From: Bradyrhizobium sp. 170
GTDB lineage: Bacteria > Pseudomonadota > Alphaproteobacteria > Rhizobiales > Xanthobacteraceae
Length of the DNA: 64,000 bases
Direction of reading: 5' to 3'
NCBI RefSeq assembly: GCF_023101085.1
Contig: NZ_CP064703.1
Span: 1,612,001 to 1,676,000 of the forward strand
The translations under genes were made by a program, and so were the position numbers. Every line of letters starts with the position of its first letter. Within the stretch, counting starts at the first letter, position 1. Under the pieces are notes generated by a model. It searched no databases. It saw nothing but the letters and a program-made list of their open reading frames with translations, and was not told the origin of the DNA. Positions 45,295 to 64,000 of the stretch are shown in pieces.

Positions 45295-45310
45295 TGGCAC
45301 GTACCTTGCT
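45295..45310 (+). promoter_or_regulatory. Sigma-54 -24/-12 promoter before hupG
   Basis: TGGCACGTACCTTGCT is a perfect RpoN consensus (GG and GC spaced by ten). It lies in the only sizeable gap of the hup run, 46 bases before ATG 45356 of hupG. Confidence 0.85.
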
Positions 45311-57311: not shown

Positions 57312-58020
57312 TTGCGCGTGCCGGTCCTGACCAAAGGCAAGAGCTCAACCGGCCGAATCTGGGTCTATGTGCGCGACGATAAGCGTTTTGGCAGGCAGGC
57401 CGAACCGGGGACAGTGTTTTATTACTCACGCGATCGTGCCGGCGAGCATCCCCAGGCCCGTCTGGCCGGCTACAGCGGCATCTTCCAGGCCCACGCCTAT
57501 GGCGGCTATGGCAAGCTCTGCAACCCGGGCCGCAACGCGGGTCCGATCCTGGAAGCCGCATGCTGGGTCCATGCCAGACGGCTGTTCTTCGTGATGGCTG
57601 ATCTGGCGGAGAATGCGCGCCGCAAAATGCAGGGCAAAAAGCCCGCGGTGATGTCGCCTCTGGCTCTGGAAGCAGTCCGCCGGATCGACGCCTTGTTCGA
57701 GATCGAGCGAGGCATTAACGGCGATACGCCCGAACAGCGCCGGGCCGGCCGCCAGGAGCTCAGCGCGCCCCTGGTTCGCCGGTTTGGAAACCTGAATGCG
57801 TGATCAACGCGCCAGGCTCTCGCGGCGCAACGATGTCGCCAAGGCGATGGACTATATGCTCAAGCGCTGGAGTGCGTTCACCCGCTTCCTCGACGACGGC
57901 CGCATCTGCCTGTCGAACAACGCCGAACGAGCCCTATGCGGCATCGCCCTGGGTCGGAAGTCGTGGCTGTTCTGCCGCTCCGACCGTGCCGCGACGATGT
58001 ACAGCCTGATCGTCACCGCC
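57312..58020 (+). pseudogene. IS66 transposase TnpC, part 1 (split by nested insertion)
   Basis: VPVLTKGKSSTGRIWVYVRD and FYYSRDRAGEHPQARLAGYS with CWVHARRLFFVMADLAENAR belong to IS66 TnpC. After a frame change near 57785 it continues MRDQRARLSRRNDVAKAMDY and LKRWSAFTRFLDDGRICLSN, stopping inside MYSLIVTA at 58020. The missing C-terminus is found at 61153-61293. Confidence 0.8.
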
Positions 58021-58040
58021 TTATGCCGCGCGCGGCATAA
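58021..58040. repeat. 20-base perfect palindrome at the left end of the insertion
   Basis: TTATGCCGCGCGCGGCATAA is its own reverse complement. It sits exactly where the IS66 match stops, so it is probably the terminus or recombination site of the nested element. Confidence 0.75.
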
Positions 58041-58042
58041 GA

Positions 58043-58118
58043 GCGTTTTTAGATTGGCGGCGCGGTACCGAAGCTTCAAAGTGCGCCGCTGTGATTGCGC
58101 CGGTAATCTAAAAACGTG
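58043..58118. repeat. Imperfect inverted repeat (hairpin), arms of about 20 bases
   Basis: CGTTTTTAGATT (from 58044) pairs with AATCTAAAAACG (ending about 58117); further inward GGCGGCGC and GCGCCGGT pair partly. The loop is about 30 bases. It could be a terminator-like or transposase-recognised end structure. Confidence 0.55.
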
Positions 58119-58330
58119 TTGGACGAAGCCGCCTAGCGCGCCGGTGCCGCTATGGAAATTGGATGCTGCATCCCAGCGCACAGGGCCGTCGCTGAGCTTC
58201 GGGAACATGCTGGATGCGGTCTTGATGGCGAAACATTCTAATCGAGATATGTTCTCCCGATCGGAAAGACCGGCGACGCCTGCGCTTGGAGGGCTTGATG
58301 TCGGAAGCGCGACAATAGGATTCCTGCTGT

Positions 58331-59599
58331 CTACCTTGGCAGATAGAAAGAACGATGATCAATGATTGGCAAATCCCGACCGTCATGAAGTGTCCAGAAA
58401 AGGTGGGCCTTGGATGCGACGGGCGCGAGCAGCTCGATGCACACCATCTGCCCTTGACGGCAAAAGGGACATTCCCGCAGGGAAACGCCGGTCAGCTCCT
58501 CAACCTTGTCACGATAATCGCGCCCTTCCTTCGGTTTTAGCGGCGTATCGGACTGCTGCATTCCGAGCAGTTCGCGGCAGCGGGCGAGCTTTTGCTTGCG
58601 GTAGCGGTTGCCCATGAAACCATAATAACGGATGCGCTGAAATCTCTCGGGCAAGACATGGACGAGGAAACGCCGGATGAACTCCCCGGCGTCGAGCGTC
58701 ATTACCTTTTGCCGGTTCGCGTTGCGATAGTCCTTCCACCGGAAGCGTACCTTGCCATCCTCGATATCGACGATCCGGTTGTTGGCGATTGCCACCCGGT
58801 GTGTGTAGCGTCCGACATATTCCAGAACCCGCTCAGCGCCCGCGAAGGGTGGCTTGGCATAGACCACCCAGTTGAGCTGGCGGGCGGGATCCAGATAGCG
58901 CCGGAATGCGACGGGATCGTGCAGCCGTTCCAATGACGAAAAGAATCGCAACTCGCGCCATCGAATGCCTTTTGCAGGCCTTCGAGAAACAATCGCCGGA
59001 ACAGTCGGGAGAGCACGGCGACTGTTAGGAAGAAGCCGGGACAGCACGCGATCCAACGGCTCCCGTACGGCGATAGCCCGCCGCCGGGCACGACGCAGTG
59101 GAGATGGGGGTGATGGCTGAGATTCTGACCCCAGGTGTGAAGCACCGCGAAAAATCCGATCTCCGCGCCGAGATGTCTCCGATCGGCAGCGATGGTGCGC
59201 AACGTCTCGGGCGGCTGCGTGGAACAGGATCTTGTAGACCGTGCTGGCATTCTGGAAGGCAATCGCGGCGACCTTGTCGGGAACGGTGAAGACGACATGG
59301 AAATACTGCGTATCGAGAAGCTTTTCCCGCCGAGCCTCGATCCATTCCGCTCGGGCGAGCCACTGGCACTTGGGGCAACTGCGGGAACGGCAGCTGTTGT
59401 ATATCCGTCGTTCGCCACAGCGGTCGCACTGTTCGACATGGCCGCCGAGCGCCGACGTTCGGCAGCGCTCGATGGCAATCATCGCTGCGCGTCGTTCGGT
59501 CGATAGCGAGGCCCAGTGCTGCTCTCGCCAGGCAGCACCGTAGCGACGGAATATAACCGCCACCTCCGGACCCGAGCGGCCCATGAGGCTGGCCGTCAA
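58331..59599 (-). pseudogene. IS91-type transposase with two compensating frameshifts
   Basis: The frame is open for 422 residues with the zinc-binding N-terminus (HVEQCDRCGERRIYNSCRSR, SCPKCQ) and the correct C-terminus (YVGRYTHRVAIANNRIVDIE, then CPFCRQGQM). Between about 59209 and 58952 the family sequence is in another frame: ETLRTIAADRRHLGAEIGFF, then HTWGQNLSHHPHLHCVVPGG. One extra C near 59209 and one missing base near 58952 explain it. The shifted part contains the HUH-type metal motif HPHLH, so the apparent full-length product lacks its catalytic centre. Confidence 0.8.
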
Positions 59600-60473
59600 A
59601 AATGTTCGAGCGCTGGCGGCGAGGAAGCCTTGGGGATCGGACGCGGCAGCAGTTCAAGCGGGCTCGTCGCTGCGCAGATCTTGTTGGTAGCGATCCGCAG
59701 ATATTGAGCGGTCGTAGACAGGCTGCGATGGCCGAGCAGGAGCTGGATGGTGCGGAGATCGGTTCCGGCTTCGAGCAGGTGCACCGCAAATGCGTGCCGC
59801 AGCGAATGCGGCGTCACCGGCTTGGTGAGTTTCGACACCCGATGTGCCTGGCGGCAGGTGGCATCCACGGCGCTTGTCGATATCGGTTCTCCAGCAACGG
59901 CGCCGGGAAACATCCATGCTCCGGTGGGTCGCACGGCGCGCCAATAGGCCGTCAGCACCTCCAGCAACCTGGCCGACAGCATGACGTAGCGGTCTTTCTG
60001 TCCCTTGCCCTGCTGCAGCACCATGCGCTGGCGGTCGATAGCCTCAGGCTTCAGGCGGGTCGCCTCGGAAATACGCAGGCCGGCGGCATAGCATGTCGTC
60101 AGGATCGCGTGGTGTTTGAAGCTCTCGATGCAGCCAAGGAAGTGCCGCACCTCCTCAGGGCTGAGAATGACGGCCAGTGTCTTTGGCGCCTTTGGGCACG
60201 GAATGATCCGGTCGAAATCCCAATCGAGGCCGAGCGTGACGCGGTAGAGAAAACGAAGCGCTCTGACGGTCACGTGCACCGAACGTGGCGCCAGTTTCTT
60301 CTCGTTCGTCAAATAGACCTGGTAGGCGTGGATATCCTCCAGGCCGAGCAAAGCCGGCGATTTAGCGAAATGCCGGCGAACTGCGAAACCTGCAGCAAAT
60401 ATGAATCCTGCGTGTGTCGCGACAGGTTGCGGACCTGCATGTCTTCCATCATGCGTAACCGAAGCGAGGTCAT
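59596..60473 (-). pseudogene. XerD-like tyrosine recombinase, one-base frameshift
   Basis: ATG 60473 begins MTSLRLRMMEDMQVRNLSRH with TQDSYLLQVSQFA; one C is missing near 60375 and the family sequence continues in another frame (HFAKSPALLGLEDIHAYQVY) to the end. The catalytic residues are present: RISEATRL (Arg), HSLRHAFAVHLL (His-x-x-Arg), LLGHRSLSTTAQYLRI (His and Tyr). The 3' part is open alone from 60351 (251 codons) but lacks the full core-binding domain. Overlaps the IS91-type gene by four bases. Confidence 0.78.
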
Positions 60474-60666
60474 AGCGATCTCCTTGACAAGAGGGACGCT
60501 GCGCGCGGGCAGCAACACCATCTTGCCAGGGGCAAGCGCTTCCGGTTTGGGGTGGATTGCGTCGCTGTGCGGGTGGTGCCGGGGGTCAGAGACACGGGCT
60601 GACTTCAAGGGGATACGCCGTGCTCAACAAGGATACCCTCCCGCGGAGCGGGTTCGTCCAAAGCTG

Positions 60667-61152
60667 TTTATGCCGACTGCCGAACTATGCCGAAGGGTTT
60701 TGGGAAGAGCCCGTTGTCTGCGCGTAATTGCGGGTAGTCGAGCGGTCGTGGTTCCGGTTCCATTCGGCATAGTCTGGCGTCTTACAGCGCCTCAAGGAAG
60801 GTGAGCGGCGGTCACTCGGCTGGAAGCGGGTCGCATGTGGTGCTCGTAGACGCCAGATCTTTTAATCCAGCTGAAGAGACCGCAGACCAAGTTCAGGCAT
60901 CGCCATGTGCCGTGGCCAGCGAGTTCGTCTTCACGAGAAGCGCCGCGTAGAGTTCGACGAGCCGTCCGTGGGGTCCACTCTTCAGGCGCCGAAATAGTGG
61001 CTGCCGCGCAAATACTCTTCTGCAATCATATGCTGGCCTCCGCATTTGAAAGCGGAGGCACAAGACAAACTATGCCGAGCCAATTACACGCCGCTCACAG
61101 TGAATCTCGGGGAAAACAAGCTCGTTCGGCATAGTTCGGCAGTCGGCATAAA
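60667..61152. mobile_element. 486-bp segment bounded by 28-base perfect inverted repeats
   Basis: The left arm is 60667-60694, starting TTTATGCCGACTGCCGAACT; the right arm 61125-61152 is its exact reverse complement. Inside there is no supported gene, only partial copies of the motif CGGCATAGT/ACTATGCCGA (about 60765 and 61071). It looks like a deletion derivative or miniature element; its right end is also the right end of the 3.1-kb insertion. Confidence 0.7.
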
Positions 61153-61293: not shown

Positions 61294-61597
61294 GAGTGAC
61301 CGCTACGCGGTCTTCACCGGCTTGACCGGACGCTTGAGAGTGGCGAGGCACATGGATTAACTCCTGTCCAGTTTTTCGAGCGAAGATCAGGTCCCCGGAA
61401 CGTACCCGGGGCAGGTCAGTACCACCCAAGTCACTCTTGTCGATCCCCAGCACTTTTGCCTGGGTTATTTGTAGATGGTCGTAATTGTGAACCTCGATGC
61501 GAGATCGTAGTGCTTGCTCATCTTAATCAGAGTTCGATGTTGATTTAAATGTGGGGCTTCGACCTCTCTATGCAGGTCACAGATGGATACGCATCGA
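61294..61597. other. No gene; flank between IS66 end and nif promoter
   Basis: Probably the 3' non-coding end of the IS66 element followed by the upstream part of a nif regulatory region. No frame with recognisable content. Confidence 0.4.
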
Positions 61598-61613
61598 TGT
61601 CGCGAACCTGACA
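61598..61613 (+). promoter_or_regulatory. NifA upstream activator site
   Basis: TGTCGCGAACCTGACA is an exact TGT-N10-ACA. It lies 82 bases before a perfect -24/-12 promoter, the usual distance for NifA sites. Confidence 0.8.
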
Positions 61614-61695
61614 AAATGTTGCGACCATTCCAGCGGACATGTTGGCGCGCATGCGTGTTTCAGTCTCGCTATGCGGGCGAGCACGGTATTCGACG

Positions 61696-61711
61696 TGGCA
61701 CGCGGATTGCT
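61696..61711 (+). promoter_or_regulatory. Sigma-54 -24/-12 promoter (nif type)
   Basis: TGGCACGCGGATTGCT matches the RpoN consensus at every defining base. It lies about 100 bases before the nifH relic start (61814), as in real rhizobial nifH leaders. With the relic broken, it points at the P450 genes from 62158. Confidence 0.88.
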
Positions 61712-61813
61712 GGGATGATGAGCAAAGAACCTAGCGGCAAAAGCGGCTGTAGCAACTGCATCCTCATTTCGTGGATGACACCGCGATCGATGGAACGAAG
61801 AAAGAAAAGCAAA

Positions 61814-62012
61814 ATGTCAAATCCGCATCAGATAGCATTCTATGGGAAGGGGCCTCGGCGAAACCGCCCCCTACCAAACAGGCTCGCCGCCCTTGTCGAC
61901 CCTTGCGCAGGAAATCTTGATGGCCGGCTGCGACTCAAAGGCCCACCACACTCGCCTTATCCTGAACAAGGCGCAGGATAAAGTTCTGCATCTCGCCGCG
62001 CGGTATGCCTAG
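61814..62012 (+). pseudogene. nifH: nifH relic (first about 65 codons)
   Basis: ATG 61814 gives MSNPHQIAFYGKG, the start of nitrogenase iron protein (RQIAFYGKGGIGKST). The P-loop is then destroyed by small indels; in another frame the match resumes: ILMAGCDSKAHHTRLILN and KAQDKVLHLAARYA-stop (compare ILIVGCDPKADSTRLILN and KAQDTVLHLAA). Nothing after the VLHLAA region remains. The Walker A is lost and the gene is dead, but its promoter is preserved. Confidence 0.85.
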
Positions 62013-62141
62013 ACAGTTACACGTTGGCCGATCTTGATAATCGAGTCGGGCTACGCCGCGGAGGACGTCGTCTACATGCCGTCTTACGTCATTCGCTGCC
62101 CGCAGCGCCTGCCGGTCACCTTCCGCCCTTCCATCGCTTAG
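62013..62141 (+). pseudogene. P450 C-terminal tail, probable cyp115 relic
   Basis: An open stretch ends DVVYMPSYVIRCPQRLPVTF, then RPSIA and TAG at 62139, 16 bases before cyp112. This looks like the tail of a cytochrome P450. In rhizobial gibberellin operons a truncated cyp115 is known to remain just upstream of cyp112, so this is the natural reading. The haem-binding part is absent; similarity is short. Confidence 0.5.
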
Positions 62142-62157
62142 AGAGTGAAGTGCCACG

Positions 62158-63360
62158 ATGTCCGAACAACCCTTGCCGACGCTGCCGATGTGGCGCGTCG
62201 ATCACATCGAGCCCTCGCCCGAGATGTTGGCGCTACGCGCCAACGGTCCGATCCACCGCGTGCGCTTCCCGTCCGGGCACGAAGGCTGGTGGGTGACAGG
62301 CTACGACGAGGCCAAGGCGGCGCTGTCCGACGCGGCGTTCCGGCCCGCGGGAATGCCGCCGACGGCATTCACCCCGGATTCGGTGATTCTCGGTTCGCCG
62401 GGGTGGCTGGTCTCGCACGAGGGGGGCGAGCATGCCCGGTTACGCACGATCGTGGCGGCGGCCTTCAGCAACCGCAGGATGAAGCTGCTCGCGCAGCAGG
62501 TCGAGGCGATCGCCGCGCAGTTGTTCGAGACGCTGGCGGCCCAGCCCCAGCCCGCCGACCTGCGGCGCCACCTCTCCTTTCCGCTTCCGGCCATGGTCAT
62601 CAGCGCGCTGCTGGGCGTGCTCTACGAGGATCACGCCTTTTTCGCCGGGCTGTCCGACGAGGTGATGACGCACCAGCATGAAAGCGGCCCGCGCAGCGCG
62701 TCGCGCCTGGCCTGGGAAGAACTGCGCGCCTACATTCGCGGCAAGATGCGGGACAAGCGCCAGGATCCGGGCGACAACCTGCTGACGGATCTGCTCGCGG
62801 CGGTCGACCAGGGCAAGGCGACCGAGGAAGAGGCGATCGGCCTGGCGGCGGGCATGCTGGTGGCGGGGCACGAGAGCACCGTCGCGCAGATCGAATTCGG
62901 CCTGCTGGCCATGTTCCGCCATCCGCAACAGCGCGAACGCCTGGTCGGCGATCCATCCCTGGCGGACAAGGCGGTGGAGGAAATCCTGCGCATGTACTCG
63001 CCGGGCGCGGGCTGGGACGGCATCATGCGCTATCCGAGGACCGACGTGACCATCGCGGGAGTGCATATTCCCGCGGAGAGCAAGGTGCTGGTCGGCCTGC
63101 CGGCGACGTCGTTCGATCCGCGCCATTTCGACGACCCGGAAATCTTCGACATCGGACGCGACGAAAATCCGCACCTGGCGTTCTCCTACGGGCCGCACTA
63201 CTGCATCGGCGTGGCGCTGGCCAGGCTGGAACTCAAGGTGGTGTTCGGTTCGATCTTCCAGCGCTTTCCCGCGCTGCGCCTGGCCGTGGCGCCCGAAGAA
63301 CTGAAGTTGCGCAAGGAGATCATCACTGGCGGGTTCGAGGAGTTCCCAGTGCTCTGGTGA
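62158..63360 (+). CDS. cyp112: Cytochrome P450 CYP112 (gibberellin operon, BJ-1 type)
   Basis: A 400-residue soluble bacterial P450 with all hallmarks: I-helix oxygen site AGHEST (about 239-244), E-x-x-R in VEEILRM (about 272-278) and haem ligand in FSYGPHYCIGVALARLEL (Cys about 349). It is the first intact gene of what is known in Bradyrhizobium as the cyp112-cyp114-ferredoxin-SDR-cyp117-GGPS-CPS-KS operon, which makes gibberellin precursors in nodules; CYP112 oxidises ent-kaurene-derived gibberellins. A GAG(A)GTGAAG precedes ATG 62158. The next P450 starts 93 bases downstream. No lesion is seen. Confidence 0.85.
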   Translation: MSEQPLPTLPMWRVDHIEPSPEMLALRANGPIHRVRFPSGHEGWWVTGYDEAKAALSDAAFRPAGMPPTAFTPDSVILGSPGWLVSHEGGEHARLRTIVAAAFSNRRMKLLAQQVEAIAAQLFETLAAQPQPADLRRHLSFPLPAMVISALLGVLYEDHAFFAGLSDEVMTHQHESGPRSASRLAWEELRAYIRGKMRDKRQDPGDNLLTDLLAAVDQGKATEEEAIGLAAGMLVAGHESTVAQIEFGLLAMFRHPQQRERLVGDPSLADKAVEEILRMYSPGAGWDGIMRYPRTDVTIAGVHIPAESKVLVGLPATSFDPRHFDDPEIFDIGRDENPHLAFSYGPHYCIGVALARLELKVVFGSIFQRFPALRLAVAPEELKLRKEIITGGFEEFPVLW

Positions 63361-63453
63361 TGCTCGGACGCCGCCGGGAATCGCGATGTTCTCCGCAGTT
63401 TGCCGGCGCGCCTGGCGCGCGCCGGTCAGATCAGCCAGCCAACAGGTAACCAG

Positions 63454-64000
63454 ATGGACGTGCAAGAAACCACGGCAGCATGCCGGGACGCCTTCGCCGA
63501 ACTGGCGTCGCCAGCGTGCATCCACGACCCGTATCCGTTCATGCGGTGGTTGCGCGAGCACGATCCGGTGCATCGCGCGGCGTCGGGCCTCTTTCTGTTG
63601 AGCCGCCACGCCGACATCTACTGGGCGCTCAAGGCCACGGGCGATGCGTTTCGGGGACCGGCGCCGGGCGAACTGGCGCGCTATTTCCCGCGTGCGGCGA
63701 CCAGCCTGTCACTCAATCTGCTGGCGTCCACGCTAGCGATGAAGGAACCACCGACGCATACGCGTCTGCGCCGGCTGATCTCGCGCGATTTCACCATGCG
63801 CCAGATCGACAACCTGCGGCCGAGCATCGCGCGCATCGTCGCAGCGCGCCTGGACGGCATGGCGCCCGCGCTGGAGCGCGGGGATCCGGTGGACCTGCAT
63901 CGGGAATTCGCGCTGGCCTTGCCCATGCTGGTTTTCGCCGAACTGTTCGGCATGCCCCAGGACGACATGTTCGGGCTCGCCGCCGGCATCGGCGCCATTC
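63454..64000 (+). CDS. cyp114: Cytochrome P450 CYP114, N-terminal part (runs off the window)
   Basis: The frame from ATG 63454 is open to the end of the window (182 codons) and reads [40 protein letters not shown] and [14 protein letters not shown]; the C-helix W/H-x-x-x-R region is [20 protein letters not shown]. This is a P450 N-terminal half; position after cyp112 identifies it as CYP114, which with its ferredoxin performs ring contraction in gibberellin synthesis. The haem region lies beyond the window. Confidence 0.82.

Follow-up and report, generated by a model that had tools for sequence, protein, structure and literature searches.

A probable replacement of one NifA-type promoter by another before the gibberellin operon of Bradyrhizobium sp. 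170

The gibberellin operon of Bradyrhizobium sp. 170 begins behind the remains of a nitrogen-fixation gene, which raises the question of which promoter serves this hormone pathway and where that promoter came from. The window, i.e., the whole stretch of 64,000 nucleotides analyzed here, comprises bases 1612001-1676000 of a single 9,195,219-base contig. An earlier note on this DNA described a captured nifH promoter with a perfect NifA site and a perfect -24/-12 element, followed by a nifH leader, about 65 broken nifH codons and cyp112 as the next intact gene. The two motifs, the extent of nifH decay and the position of cyp112 are confirmed, and the features of the region are as follows:

61335-61763, + strand: segment B, a putative modA-type NifA/sigma-54 promoter region with its leader, common to four Bradyrhizobium gibberellin loci
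61598-61613, + strand: NifA upstream activator site (UAS), TGT-N10-ACA, TGTCGCGAACCTGACA, a motif match forming a strict pair with the -24/-12 element
61696-61711, + strand: sigma-54 -24/-12 promoter, TGGCACGCGGATTGCT, with C at -12, a consensus match close to TGGCACG-N4-TTGCW
61764-61813, + strand: remaining nifH leader, from alignment with nifH leaders
61814 to about 62008 (3' limit approximate), + strand: nifH 5' relic of about 65 codons with several frameshifts, ATG at 61814, from alignment
62054-62140, + strand: C-terminal stub of cyp115 (p-cyp115) with a stop codon at its end, from comparison with the Xanthomonas bromi locus
62158-63360, + strand: cyp112, one open frame of 400 aa, first gene of the gibberellin operon
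63400-64000, + strand: start of cyp114, an open frame that continues past the end of the window

Two parts of the original description need to be narrowed. The nifH leader is kept from 61764 onwards, while its first part, like the promoter, is other DNA; and the relic stretch before cyp112 is nifH only as far as about 62008, positions 62054-62140 being the cyp115 stub. The DNA from 61764 matches the leader and start of a functional nifH of Microvirga lotononidis at 77-78%, the nifH leader and 5' end of M. loti 582 at 78%, and the genome's own two nifH genes at 64-65%. Remnants of p-cyp115 at the 5' end of rhizobial gibberellin operons are described in the available part of PMC7273348, and the stub in the window is such a remnant; a word search of that paper returned no occurrence of nifH, and "NIFA" only as the name of a funding agency. 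A gibberellin operon was defined by the genes cyp112, cyp114, fd, sdr, cyp117, ggps, cps and ks in that order. The frames found in order are of the P450, P450, SDR, P450, polyprenyl synthetase, cyclase and terpene-synthase types, those from the SDR onwards lying past cyp114 in L146 together with an FMN-dependent idi-like frame; cps and ks are recognizable only through weak Pfam matches, the frames concerned being longer than the genes, and ferredoxin is annotated beyond cyp114 in relatives. Among the loci listed, the closest cyp112 protein is that of Bradyrhizobium sp. 190 (100%). Just upstream of the region, positions 58020-60693 are 91-94% identical to Bradyrhizobium plasmid stretches annotated as IS91-family transposase and site-specific integrase.

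The UAS and the -24/-12 element are separated by 82 bases, and the position of the -12 motif predicts a transcript start at about 61722. Within the 64-kb window the UAS yields 8 matches against 5.74 expected and was rejected as a significant signal when taken alone; the -24/-12 pattern is likewise not above chance by itself (3 matches with at most one mismatch, 2 of them exact, versus 1.94 expected). The second exact TGGCAC-N5-TTGCW match, at 45295-45310 on the + strand, has no paired UAS. The ordered pair before cyp112 is the only match in the window, and no such pair occurs there on the opposite strand or with the pattern reversed. Across the 9.2-Mb genome, strict pairs with a gap of 60-89 bases occur 6 times versus 0 in the backwards control, and all 6 fall between 1.67 and 2.11 Mb. 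One of these (at 1688167) lies just before nifH at 1688435, and the other four, as read from the downstream frames, appear to belong to nifB, a glutamine-amidotransferase-like gene and two modA-type relic loci, one of which stands before a radical SAM gene (Pfam). Profile searches of the genome recovered one rpoN (433 bits) and one nifA that scores over the cut-off in an open frame (752 bits, at 2161144). A second nifA, at G000:C1:1742014-1743677, gives two overlapping matches (273.6 and 425.8 bits, in frames of 406 and 331 aa), which suggests a broken copy.

Comparison with other strains locates the origin of the promoter more precisely. Similarity to nifH-type DNA ends at 61764 in the window and in three further loci, L011 (= G183), L013 (= G186) and L122 (= G193), and the DNA 5' of this position shows no resemblance to the nifH promoter that other strains carry ahead of this relic. 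The junction at about 61763/61764, with GCATCC on its 5' side and TCATTTCGTGG on its 3' side, is identical in all four of these swapped loci. When 265 genomes were searched as the genus (the strain's own included), long matches 5' of 61764 were found, among the matches listed, in G000, G183, G186 and G193. Amongst the GTDB gibberellin loci examined (the best 80 of 128), the nifH relic stands before cyp112 in 19, of which 17 have a true nifH promoter before the relic; the swapped type accounts for 2 of the 80. The relic also precedes cyp112 in S. terangae, M. amorphae, Mesorhizobium sp. 131-3-5, S. fredii NXT3 and S. americanum, and L034 (M. loti DSM 2626) combines the relic with an exact UAS and the same -24/-12 core. 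In G192 the stretch from relic to cyp112 is 97% identical to the window over 598 bases and the nifH promoter is retained. Since the nifH promoter region also precedes the functional nifH of Microvirga, the nifH-type form is ancestral. The reading of the entire unit as a captured nifH 5' region, with the promoter as part of it, has in its favor that the relic and the leader from 61764 are nifH and that relatives carry exactly that arrangement. It is nevertheless hardly tenable at this locus: the promoter as nifH's own is ruled out by homology to nifH that begins only at about 61764, and the DNA 5' of that point matches a modA/FkbM promoter family instead.

Several relatives depart from this arrangement further downstream. 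Six Bradyrhizobium loci, L122 and L128-L132 (G193, G188, G184, G190, G189 and G187), have lost cyp112 or retain only a C-terminal stub of it, so that the promoter and relic leader now adjoin cyp114, and L133 is a locus of cyp115/cyp112 fragments. CYP112 makes GA9, and its loss should alter the end product of the pathway in these six loci.

The preferred reading, a modA-type promoter in place of the nifH promoter, draws part of its support from the relatives of segment B. Positions 61335-61733 match a second place in G193 at 88%, before a gene for an FkbM methyltransferase (Pfam 48.1 bits with a cut-off of 22.7; NCBIfam 35.2, just below the cut-off of 37.7). More distant relatives, 12 loci picked out of a longer list of matches, show 66-72% identity over the UAS, spacer, -24/-12 element and leader. 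By reading, their next frames are modA-like in 6, a CmcI-type methyltransferase in 4, FkbM-like in 1 and unassigned in 1, and a modA-like remnant intervenes in two of the four CmcI-type loci. The two modA frames tested against TIGR01256 scored 113.6 and 99.1 bits (cut-off 62.5) with only 136 of 217 positions covered, and the one CmcI frame tested scored 41.7 bits (Pfam cut-off 23.2); modA frames behind this promoter family are mostly shortened or damaged. The strain's own genome carries, at about 1.9015 Mb, a modA/modB-like locus with the same promoter type (67%), in which a shortened modA frame is followed by a frame of 228 aa (assigned by DNA similarity, not by profile). The nif-linked modA promoters of Bradyrhizobium are thus homologous to segment B in promoter, spacing and leader, with the difference that they precede modA whereas the copy in the window precedes the gibberellin operon; no modA coding sequence was seen in the window behind segment B. 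Because similarity to the modA leader extends further at 61712-61763 of the window than it does in the FkbM leader, a modA-type source is the most likely one for segment B, as judged from these alignments. A close copy elsewhere in the genome was rejected as a candidate, the best other match of 61560-61745 being 24 bases at the -24/-12 element of a modA relic at 2.11 Mb. Among 391 genomes of the family (taken from a larger group) 10 matched segment B, the strain's own and G186 over the full length and the other eight over 30-119 bases, and none offered a better donor. The modA-type NifA promoter also stands before several unrelated accessory genes (L134, L136, L144, L145, L121, L138 and L165), and in some Bradyrhizobium loci a modA-like remnant lies between promoter and accessory gene.

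The replacement bears on how conservation can be interpreted. Free drift inside nifH next to intact promoter elements had been taken as a sign of selection for the promoter; as promoter and relic have different histories, this comparison is no test of selection here, and the argument does not hold at this locus. The alignment across rhizobia that the earlier note suggested gives a divided answer. It comprises 29 relic loci with the nifH promoter (27 of them distinct; L056 was omitted as a duplicate of L005), and the functional nifH loci L009 and L010 were aligned and excluded from the counts. In this alignment the -24/-12 element ranks first of 298 windows of 16 columns for conservation (98.7% modal), and the UAS, at rank 165 of 298 (91.2%), is average. 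In the modA family (15 rows; L011, L013 and L122 omitted as near-copies of the window), the corresponding ranks are 3 and 86 of 216. These ranks support constraint on the sigma-54 element in both promoter families, and the same is not supported for the UAS. The exact TGT-N10-ACA is present in 14 of the 29 nifH-promoter relic loci; of the other 15, 13 are one base short, G187 is short and substituted, and L047 is substituted. The one-base-short form occurs in G192, G184, G188-G190, S. fredii, S. americanum, several Mesorhizobium and R. calliandrae, and since it is also found outside Bradyrhizobium, the loss may predate that genus. The Bradyrhizobium loci G121 and G122 retain the nifH promoter with an exact UAS.

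The order of events was followed on a tree of 93 cyp114 sequences with a midpoint root (L056 omitted as the same record as L005). G192, which has kept the nifH promoter, falls with the window, L011 and L013 in a supported group (99/91), and within this group L013 pairs with G192 (92/80, not starred), so that a single clean swap does not fit. The other swapped locus, G193, groups with G189 and G190 (100/97), both of which have kept the nifH promoter. Over the whole tree the swapped label changes 3 times, 2 of these changes being forced by starred branches, so that vertical inheritance alone after one swap does not account for the tree; two swaps do, and so does one swap accompanied by transfer or recombination. 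At both swap sites an exact UAS arrives with the swap where the nearest relatives carry a damaged one, an association based on two cases.

This association is relevant to the cause of the swap. It is possible, at odds clearly below even, that the swap was neutral, a chance recombination of nif-type promoters on symbiosis islands with no selection for NifA control; this alternative is compatible with the preferred reading of a replaced promoter and differs from it only on the cause of the swap. The presence of the modA-type promoter before several unrelated genes, which indicates that such DNA moves, and the poor conservation of the UAS in both promoter families are in its favor. However, the incoming piece has an exact UAS and a C at -12 while the closest relatives have neither, and an unrelated NifA-type promoter is also found at the operon in Ensifer, observations that are suggestive and not proof.

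The survey of other gibberellin loci shows a variety of promoter types. Among the best 80 of 128 loci, 17 are of nifH type, 2 swapped, 3 of Ensifer type and 25 of CGGCACG type; as the remaining 33 of the 80 have none of these four classes, NifA control is not universal by sequence. The Ensifer type (L042, L046 and L052), which bears no similarity to the nifH-type or modA-type promoter, consists in Ensifer sp. IC4062, IC3342 and E. sesbaniae of a UAS and -24/-12 pair with the -24/-12 element 76-80 bases before cyp112. DNA like the E. sesbaniae promoter ends 26 bases before cyp112 in NGR234 (L207; 88%) and is found in six Sinorhizobium records over 80% or more of the query length; the gene behind distant relatives of this promoter was not identifiable from the two loci inspected. 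In 25 of the 80 loci (L040, L041, L045, L048, L053, L054, L057-L059, L062 and 15 others), a near-invariant sigma-54-like element, CGGCACGCGATTTGCT or a close variant, lies upstream of cyp112. An exact UAS starts 60 bases before this element in 3 loci, and many of the 25 carry TGCCAGAAACCTGACA or a similar sequence starting at that distance upstream; the element is perhaps an older NifA promoter of the operon. Under a relaxed rule (within 800 bases; L084 has only 91 bases upstream), a joint UAS/-24/-12 was found in 7 of the 61 GTDB loci outside the relic classes, compared with 7 of 3050 letter-shuffled copies, a shuffle that keeps base composition only.

These counts also bear on whether the motifs are used at all. 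With 54 of the 61 loci lacking the joint motif within 800 bases, other promoters must exist, and the leader in the window is long and contains stops; the motifs could accordingly be silent and cyp112 transcription start elsewhere, as is perhaps the case in loci without these promoters. This alternative is improbable, as the strict pair is highly unexpected by chance in the genome (6 versus 0) and a related operon with a nifH-type promoter depends on NifA in M. loti. In the available part of PMC3538637, an msi071::lacZ fusion in M. loti R7A gives 618 Miller units in the wild type, 646 when nifA1 is deleted and 6.3 when nifA2 is deleted. The genes msi071-msi064, called "diterpenoid synthesis" in that part of the paper, appear to be the same gibberellin operon; for such a rhizobial operon, control by NifA is already known (PMC3538637). 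As in the window, the R7A operon is under a NifA/RpoN promoter, with dependence on NifA2 established by experiment. Its -24/-12 element, TTGGCACGAGTTTTGAA, is the sequence printed for nifH in the same table (PMC3538637); the R7A promoter is therefore nifH-type with A at -12, whereas that of the window is modA-type with C at -12 and different flanking DNA before the relic. The accessible portion of PMC4910070 also reports that M. loti expresses the operon specifically in symbiosis. The proposal that hormone synthesis is under nitrogen-fixation control is probably right and is partly known already, with its support coming from the motifs and from the NifA2-dependent msi071 of R7A; taken together, the sequence and the M. 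loti relative make NifA/sigma-54 control of the gibberellin operon well supported.

Comparable arrangements have been described in R7A, where "nifH frag, msi321-320" (a methyltransferase) and "nifQ frag, msi332-331" (a P450) each place a nif promoter and a broken nif start before an accessory gene, and where, unlike in the window, the available text describes no replacement of promoter by promoter (PMC3538637). The same text does not name a nifH relic before the msi071 operon, though the shared -24/-12 element can be read from its table. Apart from that paper, the open-licence PMC literature yielded nothing on promoter replacement or a nifH relic at the operon, and neither the replacement nor a nifH relic shared across genera was found there. 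The base at -12 may itself be of consequence. According to the portion of PMC3538637 available, an A is found at -12 in the R. etli, R. leguminosarum and M. loti nifH promoters, the M. loti form is possibly read by RpoN2 only, and the fdxN promoter of B. japonicum is active with A at -12. With a single rpoN here, a C in place of A at -12 might make a difference; the active fdxN promoter speaks against this idea.

The explanation favored as a whole, at a probability of roughly three in four, is that of a mosaic 5' region in which a modA-type promoter has taken the place of the nifH promoter before a NifA-driven operon. The order of the mosaic would be a modA-type NifA/sigma-54 promoter, the nifH leader and 5' relic, the cyp115 stub and cyp112. 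Comparison between strains indicates that an operon ancestral to several lineages of rhizobia became fused to an upstream nifH promoter and nifH 5' end, and that a promoter of the modA family then took the place of the nifH promoter in Bradyrhizobium, with the junction at about 61763/61764, i.e., that one NifA-type promoter has replaced another. From the motifs and the M. loti relative, NifA would bind at 61598-61613 in nodules and activate sigma-54 RNA polymerase at 61696-61711. A transcript with a leader of about 436 bases would then read through the relics into cyp112, cyp114 and onward, and the gibberellin precursor would be made at the same time as nitrogenase. Several observations weigh against this explanation: the broken but translatable nifH start, with stops before cyp112, could cause polarity; conservation of the UAS is unremarkable in both promoter families; 33 of the 80 loci belong to none of the four promoter classes; G121 and G122 have the nifH promoter with its UAS exact; and the modA frames behind the family promoter are for the most part shortened or damaged.

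A further step, offered tentatively and at slightly less than even odds, is that the operon, spread horizontally, keeps its tie to nitrogen fixation through serial promoter replacement, a nifH-type promoter with a short UAS and A at -12 having given way to a consensus modA-type promoter that restores control in a genome with one RpoN. In this scheme the nifH promoter would be of the Rhizobium/Mesorhizobium type and the base of the UAS would have been lost in several lineages, before or after the operon reached Bradyrhizobium. The three forms of the promoter (intact nifH-type, one base short, and swapped) constitute natural material on selection for the timing of gibberellin relative to nitrogenase. 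If serial replacement is true, the locus would provide, together with the Ensifer promoter, a natural example of regulation that persists while the regulatory DNA changes, in which a mobile hormone pathway stays in step with nitrogen fixation across genera by recruiting whichever NifA promoter is available.
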